From Lachnospiraceae bacterium (GTDB lineage Bacteria > Bacillota > Clostridia > Lachnospirales > Lachnospiraceae): a stretch of 64,000 nucleotides of DNA. The notes under the pieces are model-generated. The model was not told where the DNA came from. It worked only from the letters and a program-made list of their open reading frames with translations, and did no database searches. The stretch lies in contig JAKVNF010000002.1 in assembly GCA_022483465.1 (NCBI GenBank), positions 124,001-188,000 of the forward strand, given 5' to 3'. Numbering within the stretch: position 1 is the first letter of the stretch; each line of letters opens with the position of its first letter. Below, one piece after another: positions 41,008-63,614 of this stretch. Both the position numbers and the translations under genes were made by a program.

Positions 41008-41008
41008 A

Positions 41009-41081: not shown

Positions 41082-41389
41082 GGCGTTAGTTAAGAAACGG
41101 GTTGATAAGCGATCGCCTAGCATGAGACCACTAATACCTCACTTTGAGCTCGAGCTGGGTACACTCCTATCCGTGCTGTGTTGCATCATGTAACAAAGCA
41201 TCACCTAGATTGCCTAAACACATACACTCACTTGCCGAGTATGTGACTATAAATAACAAGATAGGCATTATGCGGAGAAGAAAAGAGCTCCAAATGGGGA
41301 TTCTATATCTTCATCGGACATTATCGCGTCGAGAGTTCACCATGGAGGTTGTGGTATGGAACCCATCAACCCGGTTCTTTACTAACGCC
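41082..41389 (+). mobile_element. IS1595-type MITE, copy A (308 bp)
   Basis: It begins GGCGTTAGTTAAGAAACGGG and ends in the inverted repeat read as GGCGTTAGTAAAGAACCGGG from the right. An 8-bp duplication ATTGAGAA flanks it (41074-41081, 41390-41397). It is near-identical to copies at 45420 and 62384. It lies between the group II intron and phosphoglucomutase. There is no transposase; the ends match those of the IS1595 element at 50189. Confidence 0.93.
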
Positions 41390-41429
41390 ATTGAGAAAGG
41401 AGTGTCGAGACTGTCTACTCGACGAGAAT

Positions 41430-42881
41430 ATGATACGATTTGGCACAGGCGGCTGGCGCGCCGTCATCGGAGAGGAGTTCACGCGCTGGAACCTGGAGCT
41501 TTTAGCCCAGGCGATGTGCGACAAGATGAAGGCCGAGGGCGTCTCGGACGCGGGCATGGTGATCGGGTACGACCGGCGCTTTCTCTCCAAGGAGGCCATG
41601 CAGTGGATGGCCCGGGTCTTTGCCGCGAACGGCATCAAGACGTGCCTCATCAACCGCTCCTGCCCGACGCCGGTGGCGATGTTCTACACGATGACCCACG
41701 ACCTGCCCTACGGCATGATGGTCACCGCCTCCCACAACCCCGCCACTTACAACGGCGTGAAGGTCTTCACCAGGGGCGGCCGGGACGCGGACGAGACCGT
41801 GACCGCAGACATCGAGAAATATGCACAGAAGATTGAGGACAAAAAGCTGGAGGCGCTGAAGGCGGGAACCGACTTCACAATCCCCTCGCTCCTCTACCAG
41901 GACGCGGTGGCCCAGGGCCTCATCCAGGAGATCTACCCCTTCAACGAGTATCTCGACAGCATCCTGTCGGTGATCGACGCAAAGAAGATCCGCAACGCGG
42001 ACCTTCGGATCGCCCTGGACCCGATGTACGGCGTCAGCGAGACCTCGATCAAGACGATCCTCATCACCGCACGGTGCGAGGTGTACACGATCCACGGAAA
42101 CCACGACACGCTCTTTGGCGGCAAGCTCCCCGCCCCGAATGAGAAGGCGATGGGTCCTTTGTCCACCGTGGTGACCGACGGGCACTTCGACATCGGCATT
42201 GCCACCGACGGCGACGCGGACCGGATCGGCGTCATCGACGACCTGGGCCGGTACCTCTCCCCGAACGACCTTCTGGTGGTGCTCTACTACTACCTGGAGA
42301 AGTACAAGGGCCTGCACGGACCGGCGGTGCGCAACATCTGCACCACCCACCGGCTGGACAAGCTGGCGGCGATGTTCGGCGAGACCTGCTACGAGGTCCC
42401 GGTCGGCTTCAAGTGGATCTCCTCGAAGATGACCGAGTCCAACGCTCTGATCGGCGGCGAGTCCTCCGGCGGCCTCTCGATAAGGGGCCACATCCACGGC
42501 AAGGACGGCGTCTACGCGGCGGCGCTCCTCGCGGAGATGCTGGCGGTGACCGGAAAGCCGATGAGCAAGATCATGGAGGACATCGAGACGGAGGTCGGAA
42601 AGACCGCCTTTGTCGAGAACAACTACCGCTTCCGCAAGGAGGACAAGCCCCGGTACCTCAAGACCATCATGGAGGACCGCTTTGTTCCGACCCTTCCCTA
42701 TGCAATCGACCACATCTCGTACCTGGACGGCTGCAAGGTCTACTTCGAAAACGGAGGCTGGGTCTCCATCCGCTTCTCCGGCACGGAGCCGCTGCTGCGC
42801 GTATTCTCGGAGATGCCGGAGAAAGAACAGGCAGACACCGTCTGCCAGATTTACAAGGACGCGCTGCATCTGGGCAGCTGA
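41430..42881 (+). CDS. phosphoglucomutase/phosphomannomutase family protein
   Basis: A 483-residue alpha-D-phosphohexomutase converting hexose 1- and 6-phosphates. It starts MIRFGTGGWRAVIGEEF. The catalytic Ser is in TASHNPATYNG, the metal site in TDGDADRIG, the sugar loop in GGESSGGLS and the phosphate site in RFSGTEPLLR. An in-frame start at 41349 lies inside the MITE and is rejected. The only good ribosome site, AAAGGAG (41396-41402), is 27 bases upstream, separated by a hairpin GTCGAG/CTCGAC (41404-41423). Confidence 0.92.
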   Translation: MIRFGTGGWRAVIGEEFTRWNLELLAQAMCDKMKAEGVSDAGMVIGYDRRFLSKEAMQWMARVFAANGIKTCLINRSCPTPVAMFYTMTHDLPYGMMVTASHNPATYNGVKVFTRGGRDADETVTADIEKYAQKIEDKKLEALKAGTDFTIPSLLYQDAVAQGLIQEIYPFNEYLDSILSVIDAKKIRNADLRIALDPMYGVSETSIKTILITARCEVYTIHGNHDTLFGGKLPAPNEKAMGPLSTVVTDGHFDIGIATDGDADRIGVIDDLGRYLSPNDLLVVLYYYLEKYKGLHGPAVRNICTTHRLDKLAAMFGETCYEVPVGFKWISSKMTESNALIGGESSGGLSIRGHIHGKDGVYAAALLAEMLAVTGKPMSKIMEDIETEVGKTAFVENNYRFRKEDKPRYLKTIMEDRFVPTLPYAIDHISYLDGCKVYFENGGWVSIRFSGTEPLLRVFSEMPEKEQADTVCQIYKDALHLGS

Positions 42882-42995
42882 TCCGTCCTTCCCCAACTGT
42901 CAAGGGAAGTCCCGGAGGACCAAAATAAAGCGCCGGATCATCACATAAGGAGCTTCCTGTATGCTTCAAAGTGTAGATCAGGTTTGACATAAAAA

Positions 42996-43067
42996 GATAC
43001 CTCGCGGTACATTGATACTACTTATCAACCCGGACGGTTATAAGAATCTAATGTACGAGAGGTATCT
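42996..43067 (+). promoter_or_regulatory. left-end inverted repeat covering the IS110 start region
   Basis: AGATACCTCGCGGTACATT (42996-43014) is matched by the inverted AATGTACGAGAGGTATCT (43050-43067), which contains the GAGAGG ribosome site of the ATG at 43071. In RNA the pair would hide the ribosome site; in DNA it offers a second copy of the terminal binding site. Self-limited transposase expression is inferred. Confidence 0.5.
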
Positions 43068-43540
43068 ACCATGAATCGTAACGCACACGCATCAAAAAAG
43101 CAAACATCTAAGAAGTCGGCACCAAACGAAAGGAGACGTGGAAAAGAAGAACAAGCGGAGTTCGTCAAGAAACGCGAAGAGATCATCAAAGGACTGCAGG
43201 CGCACTCCTGGAAAGATCTCGAAGTCGGACGCAAATTCAGACGTAACGAAAAACTCGATCTGATCACGGCAGATTCAGTGATCGTCGGCTGTGATATCGG
43301 AAGCGTCAAGCACTTTATCCGGGCTATTGATGCTCAGGGCAGAGCTCTCACCAGCAAGCCATTTTCCTTCGATAACGACGAAGAAGGCTTTAAGGCTGCC
43401 TATGACTGGATGGTCGGAATCGCGGCACAGAACGATAAGACGCAGATTGTTCTGGCGATGGAACCTACGGGCCATTACTGGTTTTGCTTCGCTGCCTGGT
43501 GTACCTCGCATGGAATAACCGTCGTGCAGGTTAACCCTTA

Positions 43541-44875
43541 GGATCTGCGCGTAAATAAATTAATCAATATATTGCGATTTCATCTCCTATTTCGTATTAT
43601 GGGTGCATGAGCGATGAAGATATCCTTAAAAAGCGAATAACCGGTGTCATGTCCCTCCTTAATGAGAAGCAGAGGAGGCAGTATCTTGCCTATGAAGCTG
43701 AGTCCCTCGGACGCGGTGGCATTTCAAAAGTCAGCCAATTATCAGGTGCGAACAGGAATACGATTGCCGTTGGATTGAAGGAAATTCATTCCGGGAATCC
43801 AGAGGCTGATCGTGAAATCCAGCAGGAGGATTCCGGACGCATCCGTAAAAAGGGTGCCGGAAGAAAACCAATTACGAAATCTCAGCCGGGTATTGAAGAG
43901 GCTCTGCTGAAGCTGGTAGAGAACGACAGCTATGGCAATCCCGAGACTCCTCTTCTCTGGACATCCAAAAGTACACGGCAACTGGCTCAGGAGCTCACAG
44001 AGCAGGGATATCAGATCGGCCCTACTTCGGTCCGCGAGTTACTGGCCGTAAATGGGTACAGCCTGCAACAAAATCAGAAAAACAAGCAGGTTGGCGAGCC
44101 ATCGCCGGACCGGGATGCCCAATTCAGACATATCAATGAGACCTGCCTGGCCTACATGACCAACGATGAACCAGTGATTTCCATCGACTGTAAGAAAAAG
44201 GAAAACATCGGCAATTTCAACAACAATGGTGTCGAATATACTCCAAAAGGCACCCCTACACAGGTATTGGATCACGATTTTCCGCTGCCTGAGAAAGGCA
44301 AGGCAATTCCATATGGTGTTTATGATCTCTCACAAAACGAAGGTTTCGTAAATGTTGGTATCACCTCAGATACTGCAGAATTTGCGGTAGCCTCCATACG
44401 TATGTGGTGGGAGGAAATGGGCAAAACACGGTATCCAAATGCAACTAAACTTTATATCACAGCAGACGGTGGCGGCAGTAACGGAAGCCGTAATCGCCTG
44501 TTTAAGGTCGAATTGCAAAAGCTCGTAAACGAGATAGGTATTCCGATAGAGGTTTCCCACTTCCCACCAGGAACATCAAAATGGAACAAGATTGAGCACC
44601 GCATGTTCAGCCAGATCAGCAAAAACTGGCGCGGCAGGCCGTTGGAAACACTGGCTGTCATCATAAACCTTATAGCGAATACAACAACAGAAAAAGGTCT
44701 TGTGATCAAGTGCGGGCTTGATTCCGGTACGTACACGACTGGGATCAAGGTCACAGATGAGGAGCTGGGACAAGTGAACATCATTCGTAATGCGTTTCGG
44801 GGAGACTGGAATTATGTCATCGCTCCAGCTATTTATTCCCAGTAGAATACGCATGAGTTAATTGCGCGCAGTTTC
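43541..44875 (+). mobile_element. ISAzo13-type element inside the IS110 gene
   Basis: A 1335-bp element. The left end GGATCTGCGCG and the inverted right end GAAACTGCGCG form short terminal repeats. TTA is duplicated at 43538-43540 and 44876-44878. Excision restores the host frame as VNPYAVK, the normal IS110 sequence, which supports these limits. Confidence 0.85.
43607..44845 (+). CDS. ISAzo13-family transposase
   Basis: A 412-residue DDE transposase. An N-terminal helix-turn-helix (GISKVSQLSGANRNTIAVGL) precedes a proline-and-charge linker. The DDE domain has PVISIDCKKKENIGNF (first Asp), LYITADGGGSNGSRNRLFK (second Asp) and FPPGTSKWNKIEHRMFSQIS (Glu), which is the signature of the ISAzo13/Rhodopirellula-type family. 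It appears intact. The ribosome site is weak. Confidence 0.9.
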   Translation: MSDEDILKKRITGVMSLLNEKQRRQYLAYEAESLGRGGISKVSQLSGANRNTIAVGLKEIHSGNPEADREIQQEDSGRIRKKGAGRKPITKSQPGIEEALLKLVENDSYGNPETPLLWTSKSTRQLAQELTEQGYQIGPTSVRELLAVNGYSLQQNQKNKQVGEPSPDRDAQFRHINETCLAYMTNDEPVISIDCKKKENIGNFNNNGVEYTPKGTPTQVLDHDFPLPEKGKAIPYGVYDLSQNEGFVNVGITSDTAEFAVASIRMWWEEMGKTRYPNATKLYITADGGGSNGSRNRLFKVELQKLVNEIGIPIEVSHFPPGTSKWNKIEHRMFSQISKNWRGRPLETLAVIINLIANTTTEKGLVIKCGLDSGTYTTGIKVTDEELGQVNIIRNAFRGDWNYVIAPAIYSQ

Positions 44876-45419
44876 TTATGCGGTAAAAGCAACAAAGGAG
44901 ATCCAGGACAACAGCCAGCTGAAGAGTGACCGCAAAGACCCTGGAGTAATCGCAGAACTGGCCAAAAACGGCAATTATTCGGTACCGTACATTGCTGAAG
45001 GAACTTATGCTTCACTCCGTGAGCTGGAGCTTTTCCGTGAGCGTGTCATGGAAGATAGGGTCCGCGACAACAACAGGCTCTGCCAGGAAATGGACAAATA
45101 CTTCCCGGAATACAGGCGCATCTACAAGGACGTAGATATGGTATTCAGCCTTGCAGTCCTGGCGAAAGCTCCTCTTCCCGAAGACATAGTCAGAATCGGA
45201 GAAGATGGGATCAGAGCTCTCTGGCACAGCGAGAAGCTGCGTGGCCGCGGATACAGTAAGGCTGCAGAGCTCCTTGAGAAGGCCCAACAGAGTGTTGGTT
45301 TAAGAGTGGGACAGGTCCAGGCCAGGATGTCCATACAGTACCTTGTGAGGTCAATCCGGGACAAAGACACATGCCTTGCTGAAATAGATGACGAGATCAC
45401 GAAACTGGCAAAATCGATT

Positions 45420-45727
45420 GGCGTTAGTTAAGAAACGGGTTGATAAGCGATCGCCTAGCATGAGACCACTAATCCCTCACTTTGAGCTCGAGCTGGGTAC
45501 ACTTCTATCCGTGCTGTGTTGCATCATGTAACAAAGTATCACCTAGATTGCCTAAAAGCATACACCTACTTGCCGAGCATGTGACTATAAATAACAAGAT
45601 AGGCATTATGCAGAGAAGAAAAGAGCTCCAAATGGGGATTCTATATCTTCATCAGACATTATCGCGTCGAGAGTTCACCATGGAGGTTGTGGTATGGAAC
45701 CCATCAACCCGGTTCTTTACTAACGCC
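45420..45727 (+). mobile_element. IS1595-type MITE, copy B (308 bp)
   Basis: Same length, orientation and ends as copy A, with only scattered base differences. An 8-bp duplication AATCGATT flanks it (45412-45419, 45728-45735). It interrupts the third quarter of the IS110 transposase gene, so it inserted after that element arrived. Confidence 0.93.
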
Positions 45728-46191
45728 AATCGATTCAATACGTTGATAAGCTCCAAGCGATTCCTGGACTTGGAGAACGCATCATTTCCGGAATCCTGTC
45801 CGAAATCGGTGATCTGACCCGCTTTGACGATGTTAAAGGGATCCAGAAGTACAGCGGTCTTGGGCTGGTCTCTGAAAGCTCCGGAAAGCACAATGGCGAG
45901 ACGCATATCAGCCACAGAGGACGCAAGAGACTCAGATACTGGCTGTACATAGGTGCTAAGAGTGTAGTGGCACATTCCCGTGAGTTTGCGGAGCTGCATG
46001 CGTACTACACGACCAGAGATGAGAATCCGCTAAAGAAGATGCAGTCGCTGATGGTGATCGCATGCAAACTCCTGAGGATCATTTACGTGGTTCTAACGAA
46101 GGGGGTGGACTATGACCCGCATAAGATGCTTGGGGACATTGTGAGGCCCGAGAACACGAAAAACAAGGCGAAAGGAGCTGCTGTAGCGTGA

Positions 46192-46708
46192 ACATATCAG
46201 CACATGGCGGAACAAGCCATCAGAGAGGGCGGAGGGCTGGCCTTCGGTAAAGTTATGCAGCACATCATGGTTCCAGCACCCTGCCAGATCCCGGATTGAG
46301 GATCTGAGACCTGGCAGGGCTCTGGAATCGACAGAGTTCTAAACCAGTAGGGGAAGACAGGCGGCAGTGTTGCGCCAGCTGTTCAAACAGCTCTGTTGTC
46401 CGATCCGAACCGGTCTGGTAGCAGTATCAAACAAATAAGAGCTGTAGTCGGCAGGAAGTTTTTTCCATGGGGCATGACCCCGTAGCCAAGCTTTGCCGAC
46501 ACCCGGTGTATGACAGGTGGGACGAAGGAAGTTGTGGACGTCAGAGTATCTCTGATGATCCCGGTAGACATGGGAGGTTCACCTCATAGATCATTCAGGG
46601 TATAAGAAGGCCTTTATAAAAGTAAAGGTGCTTTATTTCCTGTACGAACTTTTGGACAGAACGCTCCAATCCTTCTCTGGAATACACCCCTTGGCTCTTA
46701 TTCGTTCA
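46192..46708 (+). ncRNA. candidate bridge RNA region of the IS110 element
   Basis: A noncoding region of about 515 bases with several stems: CCTGCCAG/CTGGCAGG (about 46279-46318), AGCTGTT/AACAGCT (about 46377-46392), GGGG.CATGA.CCCC and GTCGGCA/TGCCGAC (about 46448-46500). Characterised IS110 elements encode a bridge RNA that selects donor and target, placed in the right end for the IS1111 group. The loop assignments cannot be made by eye. Confidence 0.45.
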
Positions 46709-46776
46709 GTACCGCGAGGTTAAAAAGCCTTGATTTAATGAAGGAAAATCCCTTGACACAATAGGGAGGAAATGAT

Positions 46777-48126
46777 ATGAAAAAGGAGCTCGTCACCATG
46801 ACCCTTGCGGCAGCGATGACCGCCGCCGCACTCGCAGGATGCGGAAGTTCCTCATCTTCGTCCTCGTCCGCTGATTCGGCTGCCACCACGGCGGCAACGC
46901 AGGCGGCCACCGCCGCAGCGACCGAGGCTGCCGCTGCCTCCACCGAGGCCCCTGCCGCCACCGGCGATCAGGTCACCCTGAACGTCATCGCGGCCCAGTA
47001 CGGCCAGAACACCGCCAGCTGGTGGGCAGACTTCCAGAAGGAGTTCAACGAGGCAAATCCTGGGATCAATCTGAACGTGGAAGTCGTCTCCTGGAATGAC
47101 ATCTACACCGTCGTCAACACGAGAATCGCAAACGGGCAGGCACCGGACATCCTCAACATCGACGTTTTTGCGGACTTCGTGGCAGATGACCTTCTGGTCC
47201 CCGCCTCCGAGTACACCTCCGATGAGGTCTACAACAAGCTATATCCGTCCTTCCTGGAGCAGTCCGACATCGACGGCACAATCTGGGCAATCCCGGATCT
47301 GGCCTCCGCAAGAGCCCTCTACTACAACAAGGACATCCTGGATGCTGCGGGCGTCGACGTTCCCACCACCTGGGACGAGCTCGAGGATGCCTGCGCGAAG
47401 ATCAAGGCCTATGACAGCTCCATCTACCCTTGGGGCATCGACATGACCACCGATGAGGGACAGGCTGCATTCGCGTACTACACCTGGAACAACGGCGGCG
47501 GCTTCGTCGACGACGACAACAAGTGGGCGCTCAACAGTGACAAGAACGTCGAGGCAGTCCAGTTCGAGATGGATCTGTACAACAAGGGCTACACCAACTC
47601 CGATCCCGCCAACGAGACCCGGTATGATCTCCAGGATATGTTCGGAGCCGGCCAGCTGGCCATGGTCATCGGACCCAACTCGATCCCGACCTACATCTCC
47701 GACGGCGGCTACTCCGTGAACTACGGCGTCGCAGCAATCCCGAACAACAGCACCGGCGAGTCGGTCTCCGCAGGCGTCATGGATCGCTTCATGGTCTTCG
47801 ATTCCGACGACATCGACAGCAAGCTCGACTCGATCAAGACCTTCTTCGACTATTTCTACGATGATGACCGCTACACCGCATGGGTCGAGATGGAGGGCTT
47901 CCTGCCCGCCACCACCACCGGCGGCGAGACCCTGGCAGCCAAGGATCCCGACATGGCGAACTGGATTGACATCCTCTCGAACTGCAAGTTCTACCCGACC
48001 GCAAAGTCCGAGTGGGCAGATGTGAAGCAGGGCGTCATCGACGTCGAGCAGCAGGCCCTTCTGGGAGGCGACGTACAGGAGCTTCTCGACAACCTGCAGT
48101 CTGAAATCACCGCAGTAGAAGAGTAA
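46777..48126 (+). CDS. sugar ABC transporter substrate-binding lipoprotein
   Basis: A 449-residue family 1 solute-binding protein. The signal peptide ends at the lipobox LAGC (residues 20-23), followed by a 40-residue Ser/Ala/Thr linker. The binding domain has SWWADFQKEFNEANPGI, NTRIANGQAPDIL, ARALYYNKDILDAAGVDVPT and TWDELEDACAKI, the pattern of oligosaccharide binders. GGAGG precedes the ATG. The IS110 element ends about 50 bases upstream and may have displaced its promoter. A truncated permease follows. Confidence 0.92.
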   Translation: MKKELVTMTLAAAMTAAALAGCGSSSSSSSSADSAATTAATQAATAAATEAAAASTEAPAATGDQVTLNVIAAQYGQNTASWWADFQKEFNEANPGINLNVEVVSWNDIYTVVNTRIANGQAPDILNIDVFADFVADDLLVPASEYTSDEVYNKLYPSFLEQSDIDGTIWAIPDLASARALYYNKDILDAAGVDVPTTWDELEDACAKIKAYDSSIYPWGIDMTTDEGQAAFAYYTWNNGGGFVDDDNKWALNSDKNVEAVQFEMDLYNKGYTNSDPANETRYDLQDMFGAGQLAMVIGPNSIPTYISDGGYSVNYGVAAIPNNSTGESVSAGVMDRFMVFDSDDIDSKLDSIKTFFDYFYDDDRYTAWVEMEGFLPATTTGGETLAAKDPDMANWIDILSNCKFYPTAKSEWADVKQGVIDVEQQALLGGDVQELLDNLQSEITAVEE

Positions 48127-48158
48127 ACCGATAGTCGCTGCCCCCTGGGGCAGCACAG

Positions 48159-48192
48159 CAGGGCGGCGGGATACGACCGACCGCCCTGTTTT
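48159..48192 (+). terminator. hairpin between binding protein and permease genes
   Basis: CAGGGCGG (48159-48166) pairs with CCGCCCTG (48181-48188), followed by TTTTTG. Such intercistronic hairpins usually lower permease expression relative to the binding protein. Confidence 0.75.
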
Positions 48193-48219
48193 TGTCAGGA
48201 TGGAACAGGAGGAAACACC

Positions 48220-48540
48220 TTGCGCAAGAAAACATGGAAACGCGTTTCACCCTATATCTGGATCCTTCCCAGCTGCGTGCTGATGGCGATTTTCATTGTC
48301 GTCCCCATCTTTTACGTGTTCCGGATGGCCTTCAGCAGGGTGACCAAGGCGGGCCTGATCAAGGAGCTCTCGGGCTTTGGCAACTTTGCCCGGGTGTTCG
48401 CCACCCCGGCCTTTGGCACGGTCCTGTGGAACACCGTGGTCTGGACCGTTGCGGTGGTGGGCATCTCCACCGTGCTCGGCTTCATCCTGGCCCTGATCCT
48501 GAACAACAAGTTCCGGGGACGCAAGATCGTCCGGCGAAAT
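48220..48540 (+). pseudogene. ABC sugar permease (MalF-type), truncated
   Basis: A TTG start at 48220 with AGGAGG 8 bases upstream. The 105 recognisable residues include the first membrane helix (YIWILPSCVLMAIFIVVPIF) and VLWNTVVWTVAVVGISTVLG, LALILNNKFRGRKIVR, the normal N-terminal third of a roughly 290-residue permease. The homology stops at about 48534. The rest, including the EAA loop, and the usual second permease gene are absent. Confidence 0.88.
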
Positions 48541-48757
48541 CGAGACGATTTACGAAAGAGATAAGTTTACGGGTTCCACCACTAAGGTTAGACGCCAGAC
48601 ATTAATGCCTTTACGGACAATCGGCACATATAGCAATACGGGGTGGCCGCTATTCCGACCCCGCCAATCCCCTCCTCGTGCTCTGTAGTGTATCGGCTTC
48701 TAACCAGATAATATCAGATAACATAATGGTTGCGGAAGGCATTATCTGAATATTTTT
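48541..48757. other. 217-bp segment of unknown origin at the permease break
   Basis: This stretch matches neither the permease nor the ISL3 element that follows. It contains an inverted repeat CAGATAAT/ATTATCTG near 48702-48748 and no coding frame. It may be the noncoding end of a further mobile element left after a deletion. Confidence 0.35.
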
Positions 48758-50188
48758 GGCCCTTTCACTTTTTTTGTGGGATGAGCCCTTCCTGACCGTC
48801 TCCGAGGTCCTCTGCCCCCGGTCCTCCACAGGTGCCCTCTGCTCTCCGTGTATCTGTACTCCCGGGCGGACCGTGGGAGCATCGCCGAGGGGCCCACGGT
48901 CTCGGAACAGCGTTCTCCATCAGATCCGCTTGTACGGATTTCTGGATGCATCCATGATCTTTAGGAAAAAGTACTCATCATCTGGAAGGCCATAGGCTTT
49001 CCTGCGGATGACCTTGATGTGTGCGTTGATCCCCTCTATCTTCCCGGAGCTGATCGGACAGAGCCCGTATCCCACAATGCCGTCAAAGTGGTTCTCAATG
49101 AGCCTGGCAAACCAGAGAAAGTGCTCATTTTTCGTGCCCCTGCACCAGTCGATGATATCTGTAAACTTCTCGATCATCGTCGCCTGATTGGCTGAGGCAT
49201 ATGCTTCCTGCATGGCCTGCTTGATCAGATCACAGGTGAACAGCAGCTTGTTCGAGTTGATGATGTCGTCGTATCGCCGCTCGAAATCGTCATGGGTATG
49301 CCTGTAATCGGTCGTACCGAAGATCGCAGATCCCTTGCGGCACACCTTGCCCTCACGGGCTTCCTGATCGTGTTTCTGCAGGGACTCCCTGCTGGCACAG
49401 AGTATCTTCCTTGACCCCTTCAGGATAGCAGCTTCCTCGACCAGGCCTTCCTTCTTCAGGCGGATCTGTTCCTCCTTCCGAACCTCGGCAATGACCTTCT
49501 CGTTGAAGTTCTTGACGATGTGGAAATGATCATAAACGATCTGGATCCAACCGCATTTTGCCTTGAAAGCCTCCTGGAAGTCGCTGTTCATATCCATGGC
49601 AACGGCCTCTACATGATGCATCCAGTCGTCACCCACCAGCTCCATGAATTCTTCTACAACGGCCTTTGTTTTGCCTGCTCGGATGAACAGCACCGCACCG
49701 GTTATCAGGTCTATGATGTGCGTCGCATATTTGTGTCCGTTATGCAGCTTGAACTCGTCAATGGCAAGATACCTTGCATAGGCGGCAGGCTTTTTGAGCT
49801 TGCCATTCTCATCCGCGTAAAGACTCTTCAGACGCTTAAGATCGATCTTCTTGATCGTATTGATGTTGACGCCAGTAATGATTGCCGTGTCCGTAAGGGT
49901 AAATTCATCCATAGAAAGATAGCGAATGATCAGCTGCTCAAGCTCCTTTGTAATCATCGAATCATCTGCCTTGAACGCGACATCCGGTGTGATGGTCTTG
50001 CCACAGAGATTGCATCTCCACTGGTACTTGTCGCACTCAATGATGGTTTGGCATGCCTGAAAGGGAATGTGTTTGATCTTCGTGTGGTAGGTCTGATTCT
50101 TGTACATTCTGCGCCCGCAGCAAGAGCATACAGGATGGTCCAGCTGGTCCAATTTACCGCGCAGAATATAAGCCCTTTTAAAGGTATT

Positions 50189-51402
50189 GGCGTTAGTAAG
50201 AAAACGGGTTGATAAGCAATAAGTGCATCTTGTAGTCATCAAATTGCAAGCAGATTGAGCTCCTTAACATCTCCATAATGGTGTACCTTCTTGGGATTCC
50301 TGGATGCAAAGAGAGCGTCCGCAAGTTCCCCAATCGTGGTCCTCTGCCTGTACGCTGCCCGGAATACGAGGTTGTAACGGTTCAAATACTTGGTAGCCAC
50401 GCCGCGATATTCGATATAGCGGTGCTTGATAAAGGAGTGAAGGTTGTTCACAGTGTTCAGATTGAAGAAACTTGCCGACTCCTTCTTCACATTCATGACC
50501 GTGATTCCCAGGATCTTGCCCAGTCTTGGATACACATTCATGCCGTCCGTCAGGAAAAGTGTTCCCTTCTGGACATGACCAGTATAGATATCAACAACAT
50601 CCGCACTGGAAGGCCTTGCCCGGTTCTCGGATTTCACGATCAGATCGCCAGTCTTGCGCTGTACTGCGGTGCAGATACAGATCTGCTCGTCTGAAAGGCC
50701 GCGTTTGGATGCGGGAGTGCCACGCTTGCGGGGCTTTCGACTGGCATCAGGGCCAAATTTCGTACCTTTTTTGGACTCCGGAACGTAGGTTTCATCCGCT
50801 TCCACGACATCTTCCACCGTGGCTGGCTGCTCCACCTGCATGTCCTCGAGAGCAAGCATGATCTTATGCCGCATGAAGAACAGACTGCTATGGCTGATCT
50901 TGCATCCATGGCTGGCAAGTGACTTGACCGTCTTATCCAGAGAGGTCCCCCTGAGCGTCTCTTCCAGAACCTTGGTCCAGATCTCAGTACCAAAGTGTGA
51001 GCCTGAGAGCAAAGTGTTGCTCGTTGTAACAAATGACGTTCCACATTGCCTGCAGATGTATGCCTGTTTTCCATGTTTGTGTCCATTCCTAACAACATGA
51101 GCATTGGAATGGCAGATCGGACAATCCAAACGGGGAGCAATCATCTTCTTCGGAGAAGAGGTTGCACTCTCATGGGAGAAGCCCTCCATGAGCTTGTTAA
51201 CAAGAAGAATCAGGTCGTCCCTGGAAAGATCTCTGGCTTCGGTCAGTATGCGCTCAATGCAGCTCATAGTCTTGCCCTCCTGGCAAGACTATTGTAGTTC
51301 AAGTTAGAGAAGGCCGTTGTACAGCAGAATGTACAAAACGGCATATTTTATACTTCTGCTAAAATGCTTTGGAGCTTATCAACCCGTTTTCTTACTAACG
51401 CC
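50189..51402 (-). mobile_element. IS1595-family element (1214 bp)
   Basis: Terminal repeats GGCGTTAGTAAGAAAACGGG (left) and its inverted copy (right) continue identically for at least 29 bases. An 8-bp duplication AAGGTATT flanks it (50181-50188, 51403-51410). The repeats match those of the three 308-bp MITEs at 26 of 29 positions, so this is their likely autonomous parent. Confidence 0.95.
50239..51267 (-). CDS. IS1595-family transposase
   Basis: A 342-residue transposase. The N-terminal zinc ribbon is CPICHSNAHVV with YICRQCGTSF, and the ISXO2-like DDE domain has VVEADETYVPESKKGTKF (first Asp), LFLTDGMNVYPRLG (second) and the C-terminal RYIEYRGVATKYLNRYNLVF region of the family. It appears intact and could mobilise itself and the MITEs in trans. 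Confidence 0.93.
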   Translation of the reverse strand: MSCIERILTEARDLSRDDLILLVNKLMEGFSHESATSSPKKMIAPRLDCPICHSNAHVVRNGHKHGKQAYICRQCGTSFVTTSNTLLSGSHFGTEIWTKVLEETLRGTSLDKTVKSLASHGCKISHSSLFFMRHKIMLALEDMQVEQPATVEDVVEADETYVPESKKGTKFGPDASRKPRKRGTPASKRGLSDEQICICTAVQRKTGDLIVKSENRARPSSADVVDIYTGHVQKGTLFLTDGMNVYPRLGKILGITVMNVKKESASFFNLNTVNNLHSFIKHRYIEYRGVATKYLNRYNLVFRAAYRQRTTIGELADALFASRNPKKVHHYGDVKELNLLAI

Positions 51403-51783
51403 AAGGTATTCTCACTCAGTTTGCTCTTCCGCATGGAGTGGAAGGGCCTGACGTCTCGAATAGGAACCTCTTCAACGCTCTCCTGATGGAACCCCGTCAG
51501 GTGGCTTGGGAACATCAGATAGTCATTTTGAGTCCGGGCAGCAAAAGACATTTGCCCATTCGCCTCGGTGTATGTATAATTCTGATTCATAAGAGGTTTC
51601 CTTTTTATCCCGTATTGCATATCTTGGTCGACGTGCAATCGAGATGATATCAGGAAATCTCTTTTTGTAAATAGAAGATATTCTCTATAGGTTGCCTTCT
51701 TTTAGTGCATCACACAAGAAAAATGAAAGACCCATATTTTTCATGCAACATCGGTGTCTTTCACAGAAAGGCGGTTTATAGCA

Positions 51784-52926: not shown

Positions 52927-52941
52927 GTTTCGTATCGTCTT

Positions 52942-55526: not shown

Positions 55527-56702
55527 ATGGAACGGGTAAACGGCGTCAATTTCGGCAACTGGCTGGTGCTGGAGAAGTGGATGAATCCGGCACTCTTTGC
55601 GGGGACCAAGGCGGAGGATGAGTACTGGCTCGCCCAGGATCTGCCGCAGGAAGTCTACGAGGCAAGAATCAAAATCCACCGCAGCGAGTACATCACGGAG
55701 CGGGACTTCGTGACCATCGCCTCCTGGGGCCTCAACACGATCCGGATCCCGATTCCCTACTTTGTCTTCGGCGACCGGCCGCCGTTCCTTGGCTGCATCG
55801 AGGAACTCGACAAGGCCTTTGCCTGGGCGGAGCGCTACGGCCTGAAGATCCTTCTTGACCTCCACACGGCCCCCGGCTCCCAGAACGGCTTTGACAACGG
55901 CGGCCTCTCCGGGGTTGTGACCTTCGGCCAGGACGAGAAGGAGGTCGAGTTTGTCCTCTCGGTGTTGGAGCGGCTTGCCGAGCGCTACGGAAAGCGCCCT
56001 GGCCTTTGGGGGATTGAGCCCCTCAACGAGCCCCTGACCGAGGGCATCTACGACGCCTCCCAGGTGGAAAAGCGGTACCCCGCAAGGGATCCGAAGATGG
56101 CCTCCCACAACAAGCCCATCAGCTTCTCCTTCCTTGAGGACTTCTACACGAGGGCCTATGAGCGAATCCGCCCGCATCTTGCCGCTGACAAGGTCGTTCT
56201 CCTTCACGACGGCTTCTCCCTCCTTCGCTGGCAGAGCTTCTTCAAAAAGAGCGGCTTCGCAAACGTGGCCCTCGACACCCACCAGTACCTGATGATGGCG
56301 GAGATGGCGGGCTGCCCCCAGACGGTGGAGGGGTACAAGGACTACATCAAGGAGCACTACGAGAAGGACATCGCAGCTGTCCAGGCCTATGTGCCCGTCA
56401 TCTGCGGCGAGTGGTGCCTGTTCAATTCCCTCGCCGTCGGCATCGACACCCACGGCGGGCAGACCGTGCTAAACGGCGTTGCGGGTGCCGCGAAGGAGTC
56501 CTTCACAAAAGAGGAGAAGCGGGCAATCTACCGGGAACTCGCGGATGCCTCCCTGAAGGCCTGGAACCGGGGGAGCGGCCAGTTCTACTGGAGCTACAAG
56601 CTCCTGACCGACACCGTGAACGAGGCGGGCTGGATCGGCTGGGATGCCTGGGACCTGGGAAGATGCGTTGACTTTGGCTGGTACCCGGTGGCACGGGCCT
56701 GA
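55527..56702 (+). CDS. GH5-family beta-glucosidase/glucanase
   Basis: A 391-residue TIM-barrel hydrolase without a signal peptide, so cytoplasmic. NGVNFGNWLVLEKWMNP and WGLNTIRIPIPYFVFGD are typical of exo-beta-1,3-glucanase-like GH5 members. LNEPL carries the acid/base Glu and CGEWCLF the nucleophile Glu. AAAGGAG precedes ATG 55527; the frame is open far upstream over the araC gene, which is coincidental. It leads an operon with a symporter and a GH30 enzyme. Confidence 0.88.
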   Translation: MERVNGVNFGNWLVLEKWMNPALFAGTKAEDEYWLAQDLPQEVYEARIKIHRSEYITERDFVTIASWGLNTIRIPIPYFVFGDRPPFLGCIEELDKAFAWAERYGLKILLDLHTAPGSQNGFDNGGLSGVVTFGQDEKEVEFVLSVLERLAERYGKRPGLWGIEPLNEPLTEGIYDASQVEKRYPARDPKMASHNKPISFSFLEDFYTRAYERIRPHLAADKVVLLHDGFSLLRWQSFFKKSGFANVALDTHQYLMMAEMAGCPQTVEGYKDYIKEHYEKDIAAVQAYVPVICGEWCLFNSLAVGIDTHGGQTVLNGVAGAAKESFTKEEKRAIYRELADASLKAWNRGSGQFYWSYKLLTDTVNEAGWIGWDAWDLGRCVDFGWYPVARA

Positions 56703-56781
56703 AACGGTCAGATGAGCGTATTGCCGGACAGAGATGGAAACCTGTCCGTGCTAAGGCCGCGAAGCGGCCCTGGAGGAAAAC

Positions 56782-58206
56782 ATGGTAAAGACAGACAAGA
56801 GAGTACACACTGCAACCGCGGTGAAGGATCCGAATGTAAAGCTCAGCTTCCTGGAGCGCCTGGGGTACGGCGCCGGGGACTATGCGGGGAACCTGGTCTA
56901 TTCCGCGATCAGCGCCTTCCTTTTGGTCTACTACACCAACGTGGTCGGCGCTTCCGCTGCGGCGGCCGCCTCGATCATCGCCATCAGCAAGTTCTTTGAC
57001 GGCGTCTCGGACCTCGTGATGGGCTACATCATCGACCGCACCCACACGAAGATCGGCAAGGCAAAGCCCTGGATCCAGCGGCTGTTCATCCCGCTCGCCG
57101 TCTGCGAGGTGCTGATGTTCACGGTGCCGTCCTCCTGGGCCTCCGGCGCACAGCTTGCGTACATGTTCCTGACTTACAACCTGGTCTCCACGGTCTTCTA
57201 CACCGGCATCAACGTCCCCTACGCGACGATGCAGGGCCTGATGACCACCAATCAGTATGAGAGAGGCGTTCTTGGCACCTTCCGGAACCTCCTTGCCACC
57301 GCGGGCACCATGACGATCAACACCGTCATGTACAAGATGACCGCCTTCTTCGGCGGTGGGGATGTCTACACCCAGCGCGGCTGGACGCTGACTACCATCG
57401 TCCTGATGCTGGTCTTCTGCGCGGTCACCATCTTCCAGCTGGCCACCACCCACGAGCGGGTCGACTCCTACAGCACGGACCAGGAGGGGAAGGATGAGAA
57501 GGTCAGCTTCGGAAAGGGACTCAAGGCCCTGGTCACAAACCGCTACTGGCTGCTCCTCATCGTCATGATCTTCAGCATGTACTTCATGATGTCCACGTTC
57601 TTCGGCTCTGCCGCCTACTACGCCCAGTACATCCTCGGCAGCACCGACTACTACACCCCGGTCTCCAACGCCCTGTCCCTGGCCCAGATCCTGACCCTGT
57701 TCGCCACCCCCTTTGTCATGAAGAAGGTGGGAAAGCGCAACACCGCCCTGCTCGGCGCGGTGATCTCCGGCGCGGGCTTTCTGATCAACGGCTTTGTGGG
57801 GGACTCCGTCGCGGCCGTCACCGCGCTCTCCGCCGTCAAGGGCATCGGCTTTGGCATGATGGGCGGCACGATGTTCGGCATGCTGCAGGATGCCATCACC
57901 TACGGCGAATGGCAGGTCGGCTTCAACCATGCGGGCATGGGCAACGCCGCCTCCTCCTTCTGCATGAAGATCGGTTCCGGCATCGGCACCGCTGCCCTGG
58001 GCTGGATCCTGGGAGCCGGCGGCTTCGACGCCCAGATGGCCGTCCAGAGCGCAGCTGGCGCGAACGCGATCCGCGTCGCCTTCGTCTGGGTGCCCGTCAT
58101 CACCTCGGTGATCTCCATCGTGGTGCTCCTGTTCTTTGATCTCGACAAGAAGTACGCCGCCATCGCCAAGGATCTGGCTGAGGGCCGGCACAAGAATGAC
58201 GCCTGA
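56782..58206 (+). CDS. glycoside-pentoside-hexuronide (GPH) cation symporter
   Basis: A 474-residue major-facilitator protein with twelve helices. ERLGYGAGDYAGNLVYSAIS starts the first helix, and DGVSDLVMGYIIDRTHTKIGKAKPW is the family signature after helix 2. It imports glycosides with Na+ or H+. TGGAGGAAAAC precedes the ATG. It lies between GH5 and GH30 genes, so it probably imports their beta-glucoside substrate. Confidence 0.93.
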   Translation: MVKTDKRVHTATAVKDPNVKLSFLERLGYGAGDYAGNLVYSAISAFLLVYYTNVVGASAAAAASIIAISKFFDGVSDLVMGYIIDRTHTKIGKAKPWIQRLFIPLAVCEVLMFTVPSSWASGAQLAYMFLTYNLVSTVFYTGINVPYATMQGLMTTNQYERGVLGTFRNLLATAGTMTINTVMYKMTAFFGGGDVYTQRGWTLTTIVLMLVFCAVTIFQLATTHERVDSYSTDQEGKDEKVSFGKGLKALVTNRYWLLLIVMIFSMYFMMSTFFGSAAYYAQYILGSTDYYTPVSNALSLAQILTLFATPFVMKKVGKRNTALLGAVISGAGFLINGFVGDSVAAVTALSAVKGIGFGMMGGTMFGMLQDAITYGEWQVGFNHAGMGNAASSFCMKIGSGIGTAALGWILGAGGFDAQMAVQSAAGANAIRVAFVWVPVITSVISIVVLLFFDLDKKYAAIAKDLAEGRHKNDA

Positions 58207-58221
58207 GAAGGAGTACAATCC

Positions 58222-59742
58222 ATGAAGGCCGTACAAAAGACCGTAAGCTATGACGTACATACCGGTATCACTTCCGTGCAGGAGAAGGACCTTCCCCTTC
58301 GGGAGGAGGCCTACCTCCCGGTCCATGTGGAGAGCAGCGTGGTGGGCCTCTACCCGGACTACCGCTTTCAGACCGTTGAGGGCTTTGGCTGCGCCCTGAC
58401 CGAGTCCGCCTGCTACCTGCTCTCCAAGCTCTCCGAGAGCGAGCGCAGGAGGGCCCTCTCCCTCTGGTTTTCGAAAGAGGGCATGAACGCCTCCTTCCTT
58501 CGCCTCTCGATCGACTCCTGCGACTACAGCCTCTCGGAGTACCAGGCGGTGGAAGACCCCATCGCGGACCCGGAGCTTGCCACCTTTTCCATCGATCGGG
58601 ACCGGAAGTACATCCTCCCCGTGGTGAAGGAGGCGCTCTCGATGGCAGACCATCCGCTGTCCGTCCTCCTCTCCCCCTGGAGTCCGCCCAAGCAGTGGAA
58701 GACCCCGCCGGAGCTCTCCGCCAATGACGCCGCAGTCTACGGCGGCATGGGCATGCAGGTGGACACCGACCGCCCCGGCCGCTGCTTTGGCGGGCGCCTC
58801 AAACCGGAGTTCTACGGGCCCTACGCAAAGTACCTTGTAAAGTACGTGCAGGCCTACCTTGCGGAGGGGATCCCGGTGCGCATGCTCTCCATCCAGAACG
58901 AGGCCTCTGCCGCCACCAACTGGGACAGCTGCCTCTGGAGCGGAGAGGAGGAGCGGACCTTCCTCACGAAGTACCTGTACCCGGAGCTTTCACGGGCCGG
59001 CCTTGCCGGAAAGATTCAGATCTTCATCTGGGACCACAACAAGGAGCGGGCCATCGAGCACATCGATGCCTTCCTTAAGGATCCCGCCGCAAGGCAGGAG
59101 GTGGACGGCTTTGCGTTCCACTGGTACAGCGGGGACCACTTTGAGGCCCTCTCCCTCCTGCACGGAAAGTACCCGGACAAGATTCTGATGCACAGCGAGA
59201 GCTGCGGCCTCCACATCCCGGGGCGGACCACCGCCTTCGTGCTCACGAAGGAGCAGGAGGAGGCCCTTGCCGGGAAAAAGATGGAGCTGGACCAGGCGGG
59301 GGAGAGAAAGACCCCGAACCAGTGCGACCTCAAAGATGCCCTCCACTATGCCCACGACATCCTGGGAGATGTGAACCACGGCCTGCAGCGCTGGATCGAC
59401 TGGAACCTCCTCGTGGACCGAAACGGCGGCCCCCGGCACGTCCCCGGCGGCTTTGCGGCGCCCCTTGTCTATGAGGAGAACGGCACGGTTACCGAGACCA
59501 TCTCCTTTGCCTTCCTGAAGGCAATCGCCGAGGCCATCCGGCCCGGCGCCGTGCGCCTTGGGAGCAGCACCTACGGACGGGACGTGGAGGCTACAGCGGT
59601 GCGGAACCCGGACGGAACCCTTGCGGTTCTTCTCTTAAACCTCGGCACAAAACCCGCGAAGGTGAACCTCCGGTTTTCGGAAACAATCCTCCAGGACATC
59701 GCGCTTCCCTCGGATGCCCTTGTGAGCGTTCGGATTTCGTAA
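58222..59742 (+). CDS. GH30-family beta-glucosidase/glucanase
   Basis: A 506-residue retaining hydrolase without a signal peptide. The barrel has QTVEGFGCALTESACYLL, SPWSPPKQWKTP, SIQNEASAATNWDSC (acid/base Glu) and LMHSESCGL (nucleophile Glu), with a C-terminal beta-sandwich ending in LRFSETILQD. These are GH30 subfamily 1 or 3 features (glucocerebrosidase or beta-1,6-glucanase). The start is 15 bases after the symporter stop. The operon ends at a strong terminator. Confidence 0.92.
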   Translation: MKAVQKTVSYDVHTGITSVQEKDLPLREEAYLPVHVESSVVGLYPDYRFQTVEGFGCALTESACYLLSKLSESERRRALSLWFSKEGMNASFLRLSIDSCDYSLSEYQAVEDPIADPELATFSIDRDRKYILPVVKEALSMADHPLSVLLSPWSPPKQWKTPPELSANDAAVYGGMGMQVDTDRPGRCFGGRLKPEFYGPYAKYLVKYVQAYLAEGIPVRMLSIQNEASAATNWDSCLWSGEEERTFLTKYLYPELSRAGLAGKIQIFIWDHNKERAIEHIDAFLKDPAARQEVDGFAFHWYSGDHFEALSLLHGKYPDKILMHSESCGLHIPGRTTAFVLTKEQEEALAGKKMELDQAGERKTPNQCDLKDALHYAHDILGDVNHGLQRWIDWNLLVDRNGGPRHVPGGFAAPLVYEENGTVTETISFAFLKAIAEAIRPGAVRLGSSTYGRDVEATAVRNPDGTLAVLLLNLGTKPAKVNLRFSETILQDIALPSDALVSVRIS

Positions 59743-59782
59743 ACCGGAAGACGAAAGCAAAATCGTAAGACAAGCAGGCTTC

Positions 59783-59819
59783 AAAAGCCCCTTCTCCAAT
59801 CAGAGGAGAAGGGGCTTTT
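59783..59819. terminator. bidirectional terminator between GH30 and AraC genes
   Basis: AAAAGCCCCTTCTCC (59783-59797) pairs perfectly with GGAGAAGGGGCTTTT (59805-59819). The A/T ends serve both convergent genes. Confidence 0.95.
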
Positions 59820-59825
59820 CCTGTA

Positions 59826-60836
59826 TCAGCGACTGCTGCGGAATGCGGACGGCGTCATCCCGGTCTGTCTCCGGAACGCCTTCCGAAGATGCGAGGCATC
59901 ACAGAATCCCGTCTGCTCCGCGATCTCGGCGACTGACAGATCGGTGTTCAGCAGGAGCTTTTCTGCCTCGGAGATTCGGATCTCCCGGAGGTTTTCAACA
60001 AAGCCCATGCCGGTCGCACCGAGCAGGATCCGCTCTGTCTGGCGCTCGCTGTAGTGAAAGAATCCGGCAAGACTTGACAGGGAAAGGTTTCGGAAGTTGT
60101 GCTTCATGTACTCGAGAAGGAACACCGTGTCCCTGCTGACATAGCTCGTGCGGGCACCGGGGGATGAGACATCCATCTCATGGTTTCGCAAAAGAAAAGC
60201 AAAAAAGCCCGCGAGAAGACTCCGGATCATGGCCTCCCGGTAGCGCATGTGCCCGCTGCATTCCATCTCAAGATAGGAGAGAATCCGGAACAGCTGGGGA
60301 TCCTGCCCGGCAGAAAAGAGCAGCACCTGGGACGGTTCCCTTCCGTCCAAAGCCCGCGCAAAGAAGGTGTGAAGGATATCGTCCTCGGGGAGAATCCCGA
60401 AGAAGTGCTCCCGGAAGGTGGAGCGCCGCACCAGGATGTTGGTCATCTGTGCGTCCGGCTGTTCGGTGCAGACGGCGTGCTCTGTCCCCGGGGAGACGAT
60501 GAGAAGATTCCCCTGGGTGGTGACAAAGCGCTGTCCGCCGTAGAAGTTCTGAAAGACGCCGGACTTCACACAGGAGATCTCGAAGAAGTCATGGCTGTGC
60601 CAGACGGGCGGGAGGATGGCAAGGTGCGAAAAGAGAGCCACATCCTCATCTCTGCGGATGAAGGCGTCCTCCGAAAGCCGCCCGGAGAGCAGGGTGAGCG
60701 GCGTCACATTCCGGCCGGTCCCGGTAAAAAGCCCCCGCACCTCCTCGGCTGTCAAAGGCGCCTGAAAGAGCCGTTTTCCGTAGTGCTTCCGGAGGACTTC
60801 CATCTCTGCTTCCAGCTGTCTTTGTTCTTCCTGCAT
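59826..60836 (-). CDS. AraC family regulator of the rhamnosidase locus
   Basis: A 336-residue regulator. After a coiled N-terminus (QRQLEAEMEVLRKHYGKRL), a cupin domain covers about residues 60-150 (PVWHSHDFFEISCVKSG, GNLLIVSPGTEHAV). The AraC helix-turn-helix pair lies at 235-335 (LSLSSLAGFFHYSERQTERI, LSVAEIAEQTGFCDASHLRK). AAGGAAG precedes the ATG. It is divergent from the GH78 gene and likely activates it. Confidence 0.92.
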   Translation of the reverse strand: MQEEQRQLEAEMEVLRKHYGKRLFQAPLTAEEVRGLFTGTGRNVTPLTLLSGRLSEDAFIRRDEDVALFSHLAILPPVWHSHDFFEISCVKSGVFQNFYGGQRFVTTQGNLLIVSPGTEHAVCTEQPDAQMTNILVRRSTFREHFFGILPEDDILHTFFARALDGREPSQVLLFSAGQDPQLFRILSYLEMECSGHMRYREAMIRSLLAGFFAFLLRNHEMDVSSPGARTSYVSRDTVFLLEYMKHNFRNLSLSSLAGFFHYSERQTERILLGATGMGFVENLREIRISEAEKLLLNTDLSVAEIAEQTGFCDASHLRKAFRRQTGMTPSAFRSSR

Positions 60837-60924
60837 CGTAGGTCTTCCTTCCTGTCTTTCTTACGCCATTGTAGGGCAGTGAAGTGGAATCGTCAAAATT
60901 TCGTGTCGGAAATTTACCCCTGCG

Positions 60925-60950
60925 GCTGTCCGAATGATCTCTTGGACAGC
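60925..60950. promoter_or_regulatory. inverted repeat upstream of the rhamnosidase gene
   Basis: GCTGTCC (60925-60931) and GGACAGC (60944-60950) are inverted with a 12-base gap. The core TGTCCGAAT also occurs 35-45 bases before the GH5 gene (about 55491). It is a candidate AraC site. Confidence 0.4.
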
Positions 60951-60994
60951 GGGTTCCGAAAGGGTATTCTGAAAAACAGAGAGGAGAAGAACTA

Positions 60995-63614
60995 ATGAAA
61001 CAGACGGACACCGCACCCTTTATCACCGCAGGCACCACAAGCCCTTTTTATGCAAGGAAAGAATTTACCCTTTCCGCCGTGCCGGATTACGCAGAAGCCA
61101 TGGTATGCGGCCTCGGACAGTTCGCCTTTTATGTCAACGGAAAGAAGGTGGGAGATCATGTCCTGGATCCCGCCTGGACCGACTACAAAAAGCGCGTGTG
61201 TTTTGTGAAATTTGAGATCACCCCCTATCTGCAGAAGGGAAAAAACGTTCTCGCCGCGGAGGTGGGAAACGGCTGGTACCTGGCAGACAGGTCGTTCGGC
61301 TATTTCTTTCATTTTCCGTCCTTTCTTCCGCAAAACCCCAACGGGTACCGCCCCTTTGACAGGGAGCTGGTGCTCAGCGTCTGGGTGGAGATGACGTTTT
61401 CCCACGGAGAGACATATCGGATCGAAACGGATTGCTCGTGGAAGACGGCGCCTCATCCCGTGACGCACACAAACTGCTACGGAAGCGAGATGATCGACCA
61501 CAGGAAGCAGATCCCTGGCTGGAACCTGCCAAAGATCCCTGCAGGGACCTGGCAGAATGCCGCCATCGCGGCCTCCTCCCAAGAGCTCTCGGCACTTGCC
61601 GCACCGACCATCATCCCTCCCATCCGGGTGCTGCGTTCCCTCCCTGGGACCTTTCTGTATCAGAAGGAGGGCAAATCCGTCTATGACTTTGGCACCAACT
61701 GCGCCGGCATGCTCTCGCTCCGGGTTAGGGGAAAGCGGGGAGAAGAGATCACCGTACGCCCCGCAGAAAAACTCGGTGCAGACGGACTGCCGGACCAGAT
61801 GGCGGATGGCTGGATCCCGATCGACGTAAAGGAGGTCCTGATCCCGGGAGAGAATGACACCTTTGAGACGTTCTCCCAGACCTTCACCTATGTGGGCGCA
61901 AGATACCTGGCCGTGTCCGCTCCGCCGGAGGATGTCGCGTGGGTCCGCCTCGATGCCATTTCCTCCGCAATAGAGGATGCCGGTACCTTTTCCTGTGATG
62001 ACAGGCGCTATGAAGAGGTACTCACTCTGATCAAAACGGCCATGGAATCCAATCTCCAGAGCGTCCACACGGACTGCCCGACCATCGAGCGCTTTGCCTG
62101 GCAGGAGGTCAACCACCTGCTGGCACCGTCTGTGATGTTTCTGAAGCAGGTCCGCCCTCACTGGGAAAAGTTCCTTACGGATCTTCGGGATGCGCAGCTC
62201 ACAAAGGAGGATCACTTTCACGACGGAAAGGGAGGCGAGTATTACCCCGGAGCGGGCCTTGTCCCCTCCCAGGCGCCCTGCTATGACCCGAACGTGCTTC
62301 CGATTCCAGGACTCGGCGATTTCTACAATGCCCCCGGCTGGGGAAGCAGCATTCTTCTCGGCACCAGATGGCACTATCTCTTTGGCGTTAGTAAAGAACC
62401 GGGTTGACGGGTTCCATACCACAACCTCCATGGTGAACTCTCGACGCGATAATGTCTGATGAAGATATAGAATCCCCATTTGGAGCTCTTTTCTTCTCTG
62501 CATAATGCCTATCTTGTTATTTATAGTCACATGCTCGGCAAGTGGGTGTATGCTTTTAGGCAATCTAGGTGATGCTTTGTTACATGATGCAACACAGCAC
62601 GGATAGGAGTGTACCCAGCTCGAGCTCAAAGTGAGGGATTAGTGGTCTCATGCTAGGCGATCGCTTATCAACCCGTTTCTTAACTAACGCCATCTCTTTT
62701 ATGGGGACAGGCGCGTTGTTGCGGACAACTATGAGGCGGGAAAGCGCTACGTCTCCTTCCTCGACACGTGCCTGGATGCAGATGGCCTGCTGTCCTGCGG
62801 CCTCGGAGACTGGGGCAATCCAAAGCAGCGCTTTGCAAAAGAGAACATCGACACCGCGCTGTACTATGCCGATGTCAGAACCCTGGCAGACTTTGCAGGG
62901 ATCCTGGGAATGCCCGGGGAGCAAGCAGCTTTCCGGAAGAAAGCGCAGGAGATTTCTGAGAACTACAACCTTGTCTTTCTTGCCCGCGATGATAGGTCGG
63001 GAAAAATGAGCTATCGGCTGAAGGACGGATCCCCTGCAACCCAGGCGGCGCTTGCGCTGCCCCTTTTCTGGAAAATGGTTCCCGAAGAAGCCAGGGCAGA
63101 TACCGCCTCAGCCCTTGTCAGACAGGTTGAAGCGGACGGCACCCTGCTTGCGGGGGAGGTGGGACTTGCCTACCTCATCCCGGTCCTCTCGGACCTTGGC
63201 CGGAATGACCTCGTCAATGCCTTCCTCCTTCGAGGGGAGCACCCGGGGTATTATGCCTTTGTGCGGGACGGGGAGACCTCCCTCGGGGAGTACTGGAAGA
63301 CCAATCCCCGAAGCCACAACCACGACATGTTGGGACACATCGCCGCCTGGTATTTCTACGGCATGGCGGGAATCCGGCCTCTTGCACCCGGATTTTCCCG
63401 GGTTCTCATAAGGCCCTGGCTTCCAAAGGAATGCAGCCATCTTACCTGCACCTATCACAGCATAGCGGGCAGCATCACCGTTATGATGGACCGCACAGGG
63501 GATGGGATTTCCCTGAAGGCAGATGCTTCATCGGGAATTACCCTCACTTTGGACACCAGCCTTCTCGGGGATGAAAAGGCAAATCAAAAACAGGAGAGCA
63601 GAACAAGTGAATGA
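60995..63614 (+). pseudogene. GH78 alpha-L-rhamnosidase, interrupted by MITE C
   Basis: The first piece (60995-62383) has the N-terminal beta-sandwich (EAMVCGLGQFAFYVNGKKVG, AEVGNGWYL), the Bac_rhamnosid domain (VYDFGTNCAGMLSLRVRGKR) and the barrel start (VHTDCPTIERFAWQEV). The second piece (62700-63614) continues YGDRRVVADNYEAGKRYVSF to the C-terminal domain (IRPWLPKECSHLTC). Removing the MITE and one duplication gives a single 767-residue frame, normal for intracellular GH78. The insertion brings a stop after KEPG at 62405, so the enzyme is inactivated. Confidence 0.92.
62384..62691 (-). mobile_element. IS1595-type MITE, copy C (308 bp, inverted)
   Basis: Same 308-bp sequence as copies A and B in the opposite orientation. 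An 8-bp duplication ATCTCTTT flanks it (62376-62383, 62692-62699). It disrupts the rhamnosidase gene, which shows that its movement is recent relative to that gene's intact remainder. Confidence 0.93.

Follow-up and report, generated by a model that had tools for sequence, protein, structure and literature searches.

The 64-kb stretch of Lachnospiraceae DNA analyzed here (the window; positions 124,001 to 188,000 of contig JAKVNF010000002.1) contains three copies of a 308-bp miniature inverted-repeat transposable element (MITE). We consider it probable that this is an IS1595-type MITE with IS-b-like ends, which was moved in trans and recently mainly by IS-a, where IS-a and IS-b are our labels for two IS1595-family elements of this genome (IS, insertion sequence). 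This reading is based on the anatomy and copy number of the MITE, its target duplications, the target rule that it shares with IS-a, its absence from the relatives searched, and units with mixed ends.

The MITE copies A (41082..41389, forward strand), B (45420..45727, forward strand), and C (62384..62691, inverted, on the reverse strand) are each exactly 308 bp long, and pairwise comparison with C taken as reverse complement gave 10 (A-B), 8 (A-C), and 4 (B-C) differences. As stated in the original prediction, each near-identical copy is flanked by a different perfect 8-bp duplication, which is ATTGAGAA for copy A (41074..41081 and 41390..41397), AATCGATT for copy B (45412..45419 and 45728..45735), and ATCTCTTT for copy C (62376..62383 and 62692..62699). 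Copy A represents the sequence type of 66 of the 111 full copies in the genome, copy B lies within an IS110 transposase gene, and copy C splits an alpha-L-rhamnosidase-like gene. An end pattern with up to three mismatches permitted was found at eight places in the 64 kb, namely at all six ends of the MITE copies and at both ends of IS-a, and was never found in 100 shuffles. The element is short, has inverted ends, and lacks a transposase gene; it occurs in many near-identical dispersed copies with target duplications, and autonomous elements with similar ends (IS-a and IS-b) reside in the same genome, all as expected for a MITE.

IS-a (50189..51402, 1214 bp, reverse strand), the likely present-day mobiliser, is bounded by two identical terminal inverted repeats of 29 bp (50189..50217 and 51374..51402) and flanked by the 8-bp target duplication AAGGTATT (50181..50188 and 51403..51410). 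Its 342-aa transposase (50239..51267, reverse strand) has a zinc-binding N-terminus followed by a DDE_Tnp_IS1595 domain. The protein scored 113.6 bits against NCBIfam NF033547 (cut-off 75), fitting to the IS1595 family, 44.9 bits against Pfam PF12762 (cut-off 27), and 42.5 bits against the N-terminal zinc-binding domain NF050000 (cut-off 28); the score for Pfam PF03811 (21 bits) was under the cut-off of 26.1. Thus, the intact IS1595-type element predicted at this position was verified. According to passages in PMC8101967, the N-terminal zinc-binding domain is present in all IS1595 groups except IS1016, and 8- and 9-bp duplications are compatible with the IS1595/Merlin group. The genome gave 65 IS1595 protein matches, and the intact transposase frames numbered 44 for IS-a and two for IS-b. 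Among the 19 of the 44 IS-a copies examined, 17 had the 8-bp duplication expected for the family, one had a 9-bp duplication, and one had none. The window copy of IS-a adjoins the start of an ISL3 transposase gene (48920-50242), and the listed ISL3 frame enters the IS-a end.

The whole-genome search proposed earlier was carried out in the 4.3-Mb genome with two 48-base core patterns (up to two mismatches permitted; every match had none) and revealed 68 A-type and 46 B/C-type copies. Of these 114 places, 111 are full-length, two are split by a nested MITE, and one is split by another element with a frame that appears similar to the ISAzo13-like frame of the window. The full copies fall into six sequence types with 66, 22, 16, 4, 2, and 1 members, the 66 being identical, and include one copy of mixed type. 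Perfect duplications were found at 108 of the 111 full copies and are 8 bp long at 97 of them and 9 bp long at 11. The remaining three comprise a copy at C2:244186 whose duplication has a single mismatch, one at C3:522849 that has no perfect duplication of its own and is part of a 340-bp composite with perfect outer duplications, and one at C4:754958 with no duplication at all. The 108 duplicated copies are not all independent events: six occupy one site of one repeated element, a further two are embedded in the same 1622 bp of flanking sequence, and copies in tandem have spacers in common. A recent burst, as proposed previously, is supported by the 66 identical copies, and the spread of the family is genome-wide. 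The clustering of three copies within 21 kb, which had been taken to point to it, is itself not striking: at a density of 111 full copies per 4.3 Mb, 21.6 kb should hold 0.56 copies, and the Poisson probability of at least three in a single preset stretch is 0.019. The clustering was therefore rejected as evidence of a local burst.

Insertion of the MITE follows a sharp target rule. The motif WWNNNNWW (W, A or T) was present in 95 of the 97 8-bp sites, with W at three of the four edge positions in the other two, and A or T occupied the same four edge positions in all 11 sites of 9 bp. As background, 4.4% of window positions have W at all four edges. All 17 of the 8-bp sites of IS-a also fit to WWNNNNWW. 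The ends, 8-bp duplications, and target rule that the MITE has in common with IS-a support its predicted assignment to the IS1595 type.

Ends of IS-a and of the MITE were also found combined in single units. At C3:522817-523156, a 340-bp unit composed of IS-a positions 1-32 and a whole MITE is located between perfect 8-bp TTTTTATA repeats. Two MITEs have a left end whose 29 bp are exactly those of IS-a, and positions 10, 12, and 13 are the only ones at which these copies depart from type A; one has a perfect 9-bp duplication, and for the other, which has none, conversion in place is an alternative. Among the sequence data, the 340-bp unit and the MITEs with an IS-a left end argue most strongly that one reaction can use IS-a and MITE ends together. 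Together with the common target rule, the IS-a/MITE-end units between perfect duplications indicate that the predicted movement in trans probably occurred. At C1:1014618, four MITEs are arranged in tandem within an IS-a end, with TAAGCAAT spacers; their types follow the order B', B, B', B, pointing to two insertion events and a later duplication of the resulting pair. A second tandem array, a pair with AAATTGTT spacers, is present at C2:928411 (tandem spacers, 8 bp). A 624-bp unit consisting of an A-type MITE within a B-type MITE was found in identical form at two sites whose outer duplications differ and was thus most simply moved as a whole.

Empty sites, the comparison of which had been suggested, were available within the same genome. 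Another element is present in nine near-identical copies; in six of them, the MITE occupies one and the same place, and the three without it read straight through. In the window, the frame of the rhamnosidase comprises 767 codons, has Pfam domains on either side, and continues when copy C and one duplication are subtracted, and the IS110 frame continues across the empty site once copy B and one duplication are removed.

Outside this genome, the MITE was not detected. In 146 genomes (at most five candidates scored per genome), a match was obtained in the source genome only, many of the others being fragmented drafts; copies at the same sites in distant relatives, which would have spoken against the original prediction, were not found in this set. 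An end-to-end pattern that recovers all three window copies gave 0 matches each in genome_contigs and viral_contigs, and blastn against plasmids and phages gave none, where the collections may omit records close to the source genome. No IS1595 relative was confirmed in viral_contigs. The IS-b protein had matches in seven others of the 146 genomes, the best being two of the same genus with 42 and 47% identity, and the IS-a protein matched 71 plasmid records, every one with <60% identity. In a Eubacterium metagenome-assembled genome (L076:2366-3579), IS-a is present at 99.9% identity over 1214 bp without a matching duplication, either by recent transfer or because the contig derives from a shared community. 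A literature search found no report of this 308-bp family, which does not show that none exists.

The second IS1595 element of the genome, IS-b, is 1187 bp long and encodes a transposase with 72% identity to that of IS-a. It is represented by two identical intact copies with a 336-aa frame, one of them with a perfect 8-bp duplication, and by seven decayed relatives, whole or partial, with 94-96% DNA identity. Each IS-a end agrees with the left end of the MITE at 22 of 25 and 26 of 29 positions and with its right end at 22 of 25 and 23 of 29; the predicted value of 26 of 29 thus holds for the left end. In the same order (left, then right MITE end), the values were 24 and 24 of 25 and 27 and 26 of 29 for the IS-b left end, 20 and 22 of 25 and 24 and 23 of 29 for the IS-b right end, and 22 and 24 of 25 for the right end of the decayed IS-b copy L067. 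For the left end of the MITE, the best match found was that of an IS from Fusobacterium naviforme ATCC 25832, the transposase of which matches that of IS-b at 80%: the left ends of this IS and the MITE agree at 28 of 29 positions, and their right ends at 25 of 29. This IS has no target duplication.

The MITE interior was compared with both elements by local alignment (six comparisons, 100 shuffles each). Against IS-a, one orientation gave a score of 28, which was equalled by one of 100 shuffles, and the other was at chance; against IS-b, no clear similarity over the shuffles was observed. An origin of the MITE by internal deletion of IS-a or IS-b has no clear support, and no shared interior with IS-a was established. 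From the end matches and the interior alignments, the MITE ends tend toward the IS-b lineage, and its interior toward neither element. The original prediction of the window IS-a as the parent is accordingly not upheld, given the missing clear interior kinship and an IS-b left end that is closer to both MITE ends. It had named a better-matching transposase elsewhere in the genome as evidence to the contrary; IS-b provides this in part, with its left end, whereas its right end is no closer than that of IS-a.

In the mechanism that we propose, an IS1595-family transposase would bind the roughly 25-29-bp ends of the MITE, which has no transposase gene of its own, cut there, and join the element into A+T-edged WWNNNNWW sites. 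Joining would yield 8-bp, sometimes 9-bp, duplications; the cut-and-join steps themselves are inferred. The ends appear to have been inherited from, or to have converged on, an IS-b-like lineage. For the recent burst, transposase would have been supplied by IS-a, the abundant near-identical element with one copy in the window, and most likely the IS-a protein, not that of IS-b, did most of the work.

Several points weigh against this assignment. Since the IS-b left end fits both MITE ends better than IS-a does (24 versus 22 of 25), IS-b may be the helper, a point qualified by its right end (20 and 22 of 25), which fits the MITE ends worse than or equal to IS-a. Target choice cannot separate the two elements because the intact IS-b copy with the 8-bp duplication follows WWNNNNWW too. 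The 340-bp unit could also have arisen from insertion of a MITE into the end of an IS-a copy, if the remainder of that copy was exactly deleted. Finally, movement of the MITE is read from traces in the sequence. In a rival reading, IS-b might have been both the source of the ends and the mobiliser, with IS-a ends used only occasionally owing to their similarity. The left end of IS-b, the right end of L067 (24 of 25 to the MITE right end, 22 of 25 to the left), and the two identical copies whose 336-aa frame is intact, one of them flanked by a perfect duplication, argue for this, whereas only these two copies are intact and the others have decayed to about 94-96% in a genome where 66 of 111 MITEs are identical, the right end of the intact copies agrees with the MITE ends at only 20 and 22 of 25 positions, and the chimeric ends found are those of IS-a. 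We regard IS-b in both roles as rather unlikely. A tentative possibility is that a switch of helper is underway, in which a MITE that arose with IS-b-like ends has come to be moved by IS-a and is now exchanging these ends for those of IS-a. Replacement would proceed via conversion and via insertion into IS-a ends, giving units with one end of each kind, and would account for the 340-bp unit of IS-a[1-32] and MITE and for the two copies with converted left ends.

The other explanations have far less in their favor. A lost or unseen IS1595 element nearer to that of F. naviforme is suggested as mobiliser by the 28 of 29 match to the MITE left end; no such ends were found in that part of the genome's 65 IS1595 protein matches whose ends were inspected, and we consider this element very improbable. 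That the copies arose mostly by recombination or gene conversion, or by assembly error, rather than by transposition is hardly credible. Secondary duplication does occur, as seen from the tandem array of four, the tandem pair, the six carried copies, and the copy of mixed type; however, perfect 8- or 9-bp direct repeats of many different sequences at 108 of 111 copies and an empty allele of a MITE site in the same genome already make the recombination form of this explanation hard to hold.

The gain or change of a transposase supplier by a MITE is usually inferred from end similarity, and the publications cited here reason in the same manner. Here, two candidate suppliers whose ends differ reside in one genome with 111 full copies of the MITE, chimeric units, empty alleles, and a target rule that is sharp. 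This genome offers good natural evidence on helper choice, the biological kind not being new. It makes the supplier transposase and the decisive end positions accessible to a simple experimental question.

MITEs of this kind are known, and the family described here is a new member. An IS1595-assigned, non-autonomous MITE with inverted repeats of 25 bp and direct repeats of 8 bp, its putative IS being ISHwa6, is on record in Haloquadratum walsbyi in passages of PMC3852290, which also describe the resemblance of MITEs to their partner IS as generally confined to the borders. It differs in size (165 versus 308 bp), in copy number (7 versus 111 full copies), and in its archaeal host. Likewise, movement in trans by a similar-ended co-resident IS is thought likely for MITEAba12/ISAba12 of Acinetobacter, with 9-bp duplications (8-bp in one subgroup) and a possible burst in one strain, comparable to the situation here; unlike the present family, MITEAba12 has another IS partner, is mostly 113 bp long with ≤22 copies per genome, and is distributed over many Acinetobacter genomes and one Moraxella, as reported in parts of PMC6382973. 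Similarly high copy numbers are given in PMC10969869 for ERIC (711 in Photorhabdus luminescens) and Correia elements (>120 in Neisseria gonorrhoeae), which are other elements; IS1595 does not appear in the main text of that review. The Tn3-derived MITEs (TIMEs) treated in PMC4133298 resemble the present units in their mosaic structure and A+T-rich targets and differ in their Tn3-family 38-bp ends and 5-6-bp duplications.

A function of the MITE as RNA or protein was rejected. Folding of either strand surpassed that of its 100 shuffled versions (z = -4.7 and -3.8), which was not taken as an indication of RNA function because inverted ends alone favor folding. Judged by eye, the A-to-B changes at positions 138, 139, and 159 lie within one small hairpin of copy A and weaken it without compensation. 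Rfam matches in 39000-63000 were restricted to two belonging to a group II intron, of which that at 41007-41118 extends into copy A, and the single sigma-70-like match in 41050-41450 is outside copy A. The longest frame leaving the MITE has 85 codons and runs out of the right end; its protein sequence varies between copy types, which differ mostly by amino-acid changes, so that no sign of constraint is evident. It can fuse in frame to downstream genes, as is known from other MITEs in passages of PMC10969869.

Avoidance of genes by the MITE was likewise discarded. An open frame spans 36 of 95 sites (98 with long flanks minus three without duplication) versus 340 of 570 flank control points (Fisher p = 9e-5), a difference that may come from the target rule alone because the control points were unmatched for A+T.

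Copy A is located between a phosphoglucomutase-like gene and the end of a group II intron (39265-41118) with Rfam matches at both ends and a reverse transcriptase frame at 39727-41007. At 43071-45431, an ISAzo13-like element and, at a further point, copy B interrupt the IS110 transposase gene, representing layered insertions. At L045:86-1196, a MITE splits a response-regulator gene between the receiver and AraC-type domains, the second half being in frame with the MITE. At L014:1563-2168, a MITE lies within another repeated element, with a frame open from the MITE into the gene of that element; since six copies carry the MITE, the element may have kept its mobility with a borrowed start.

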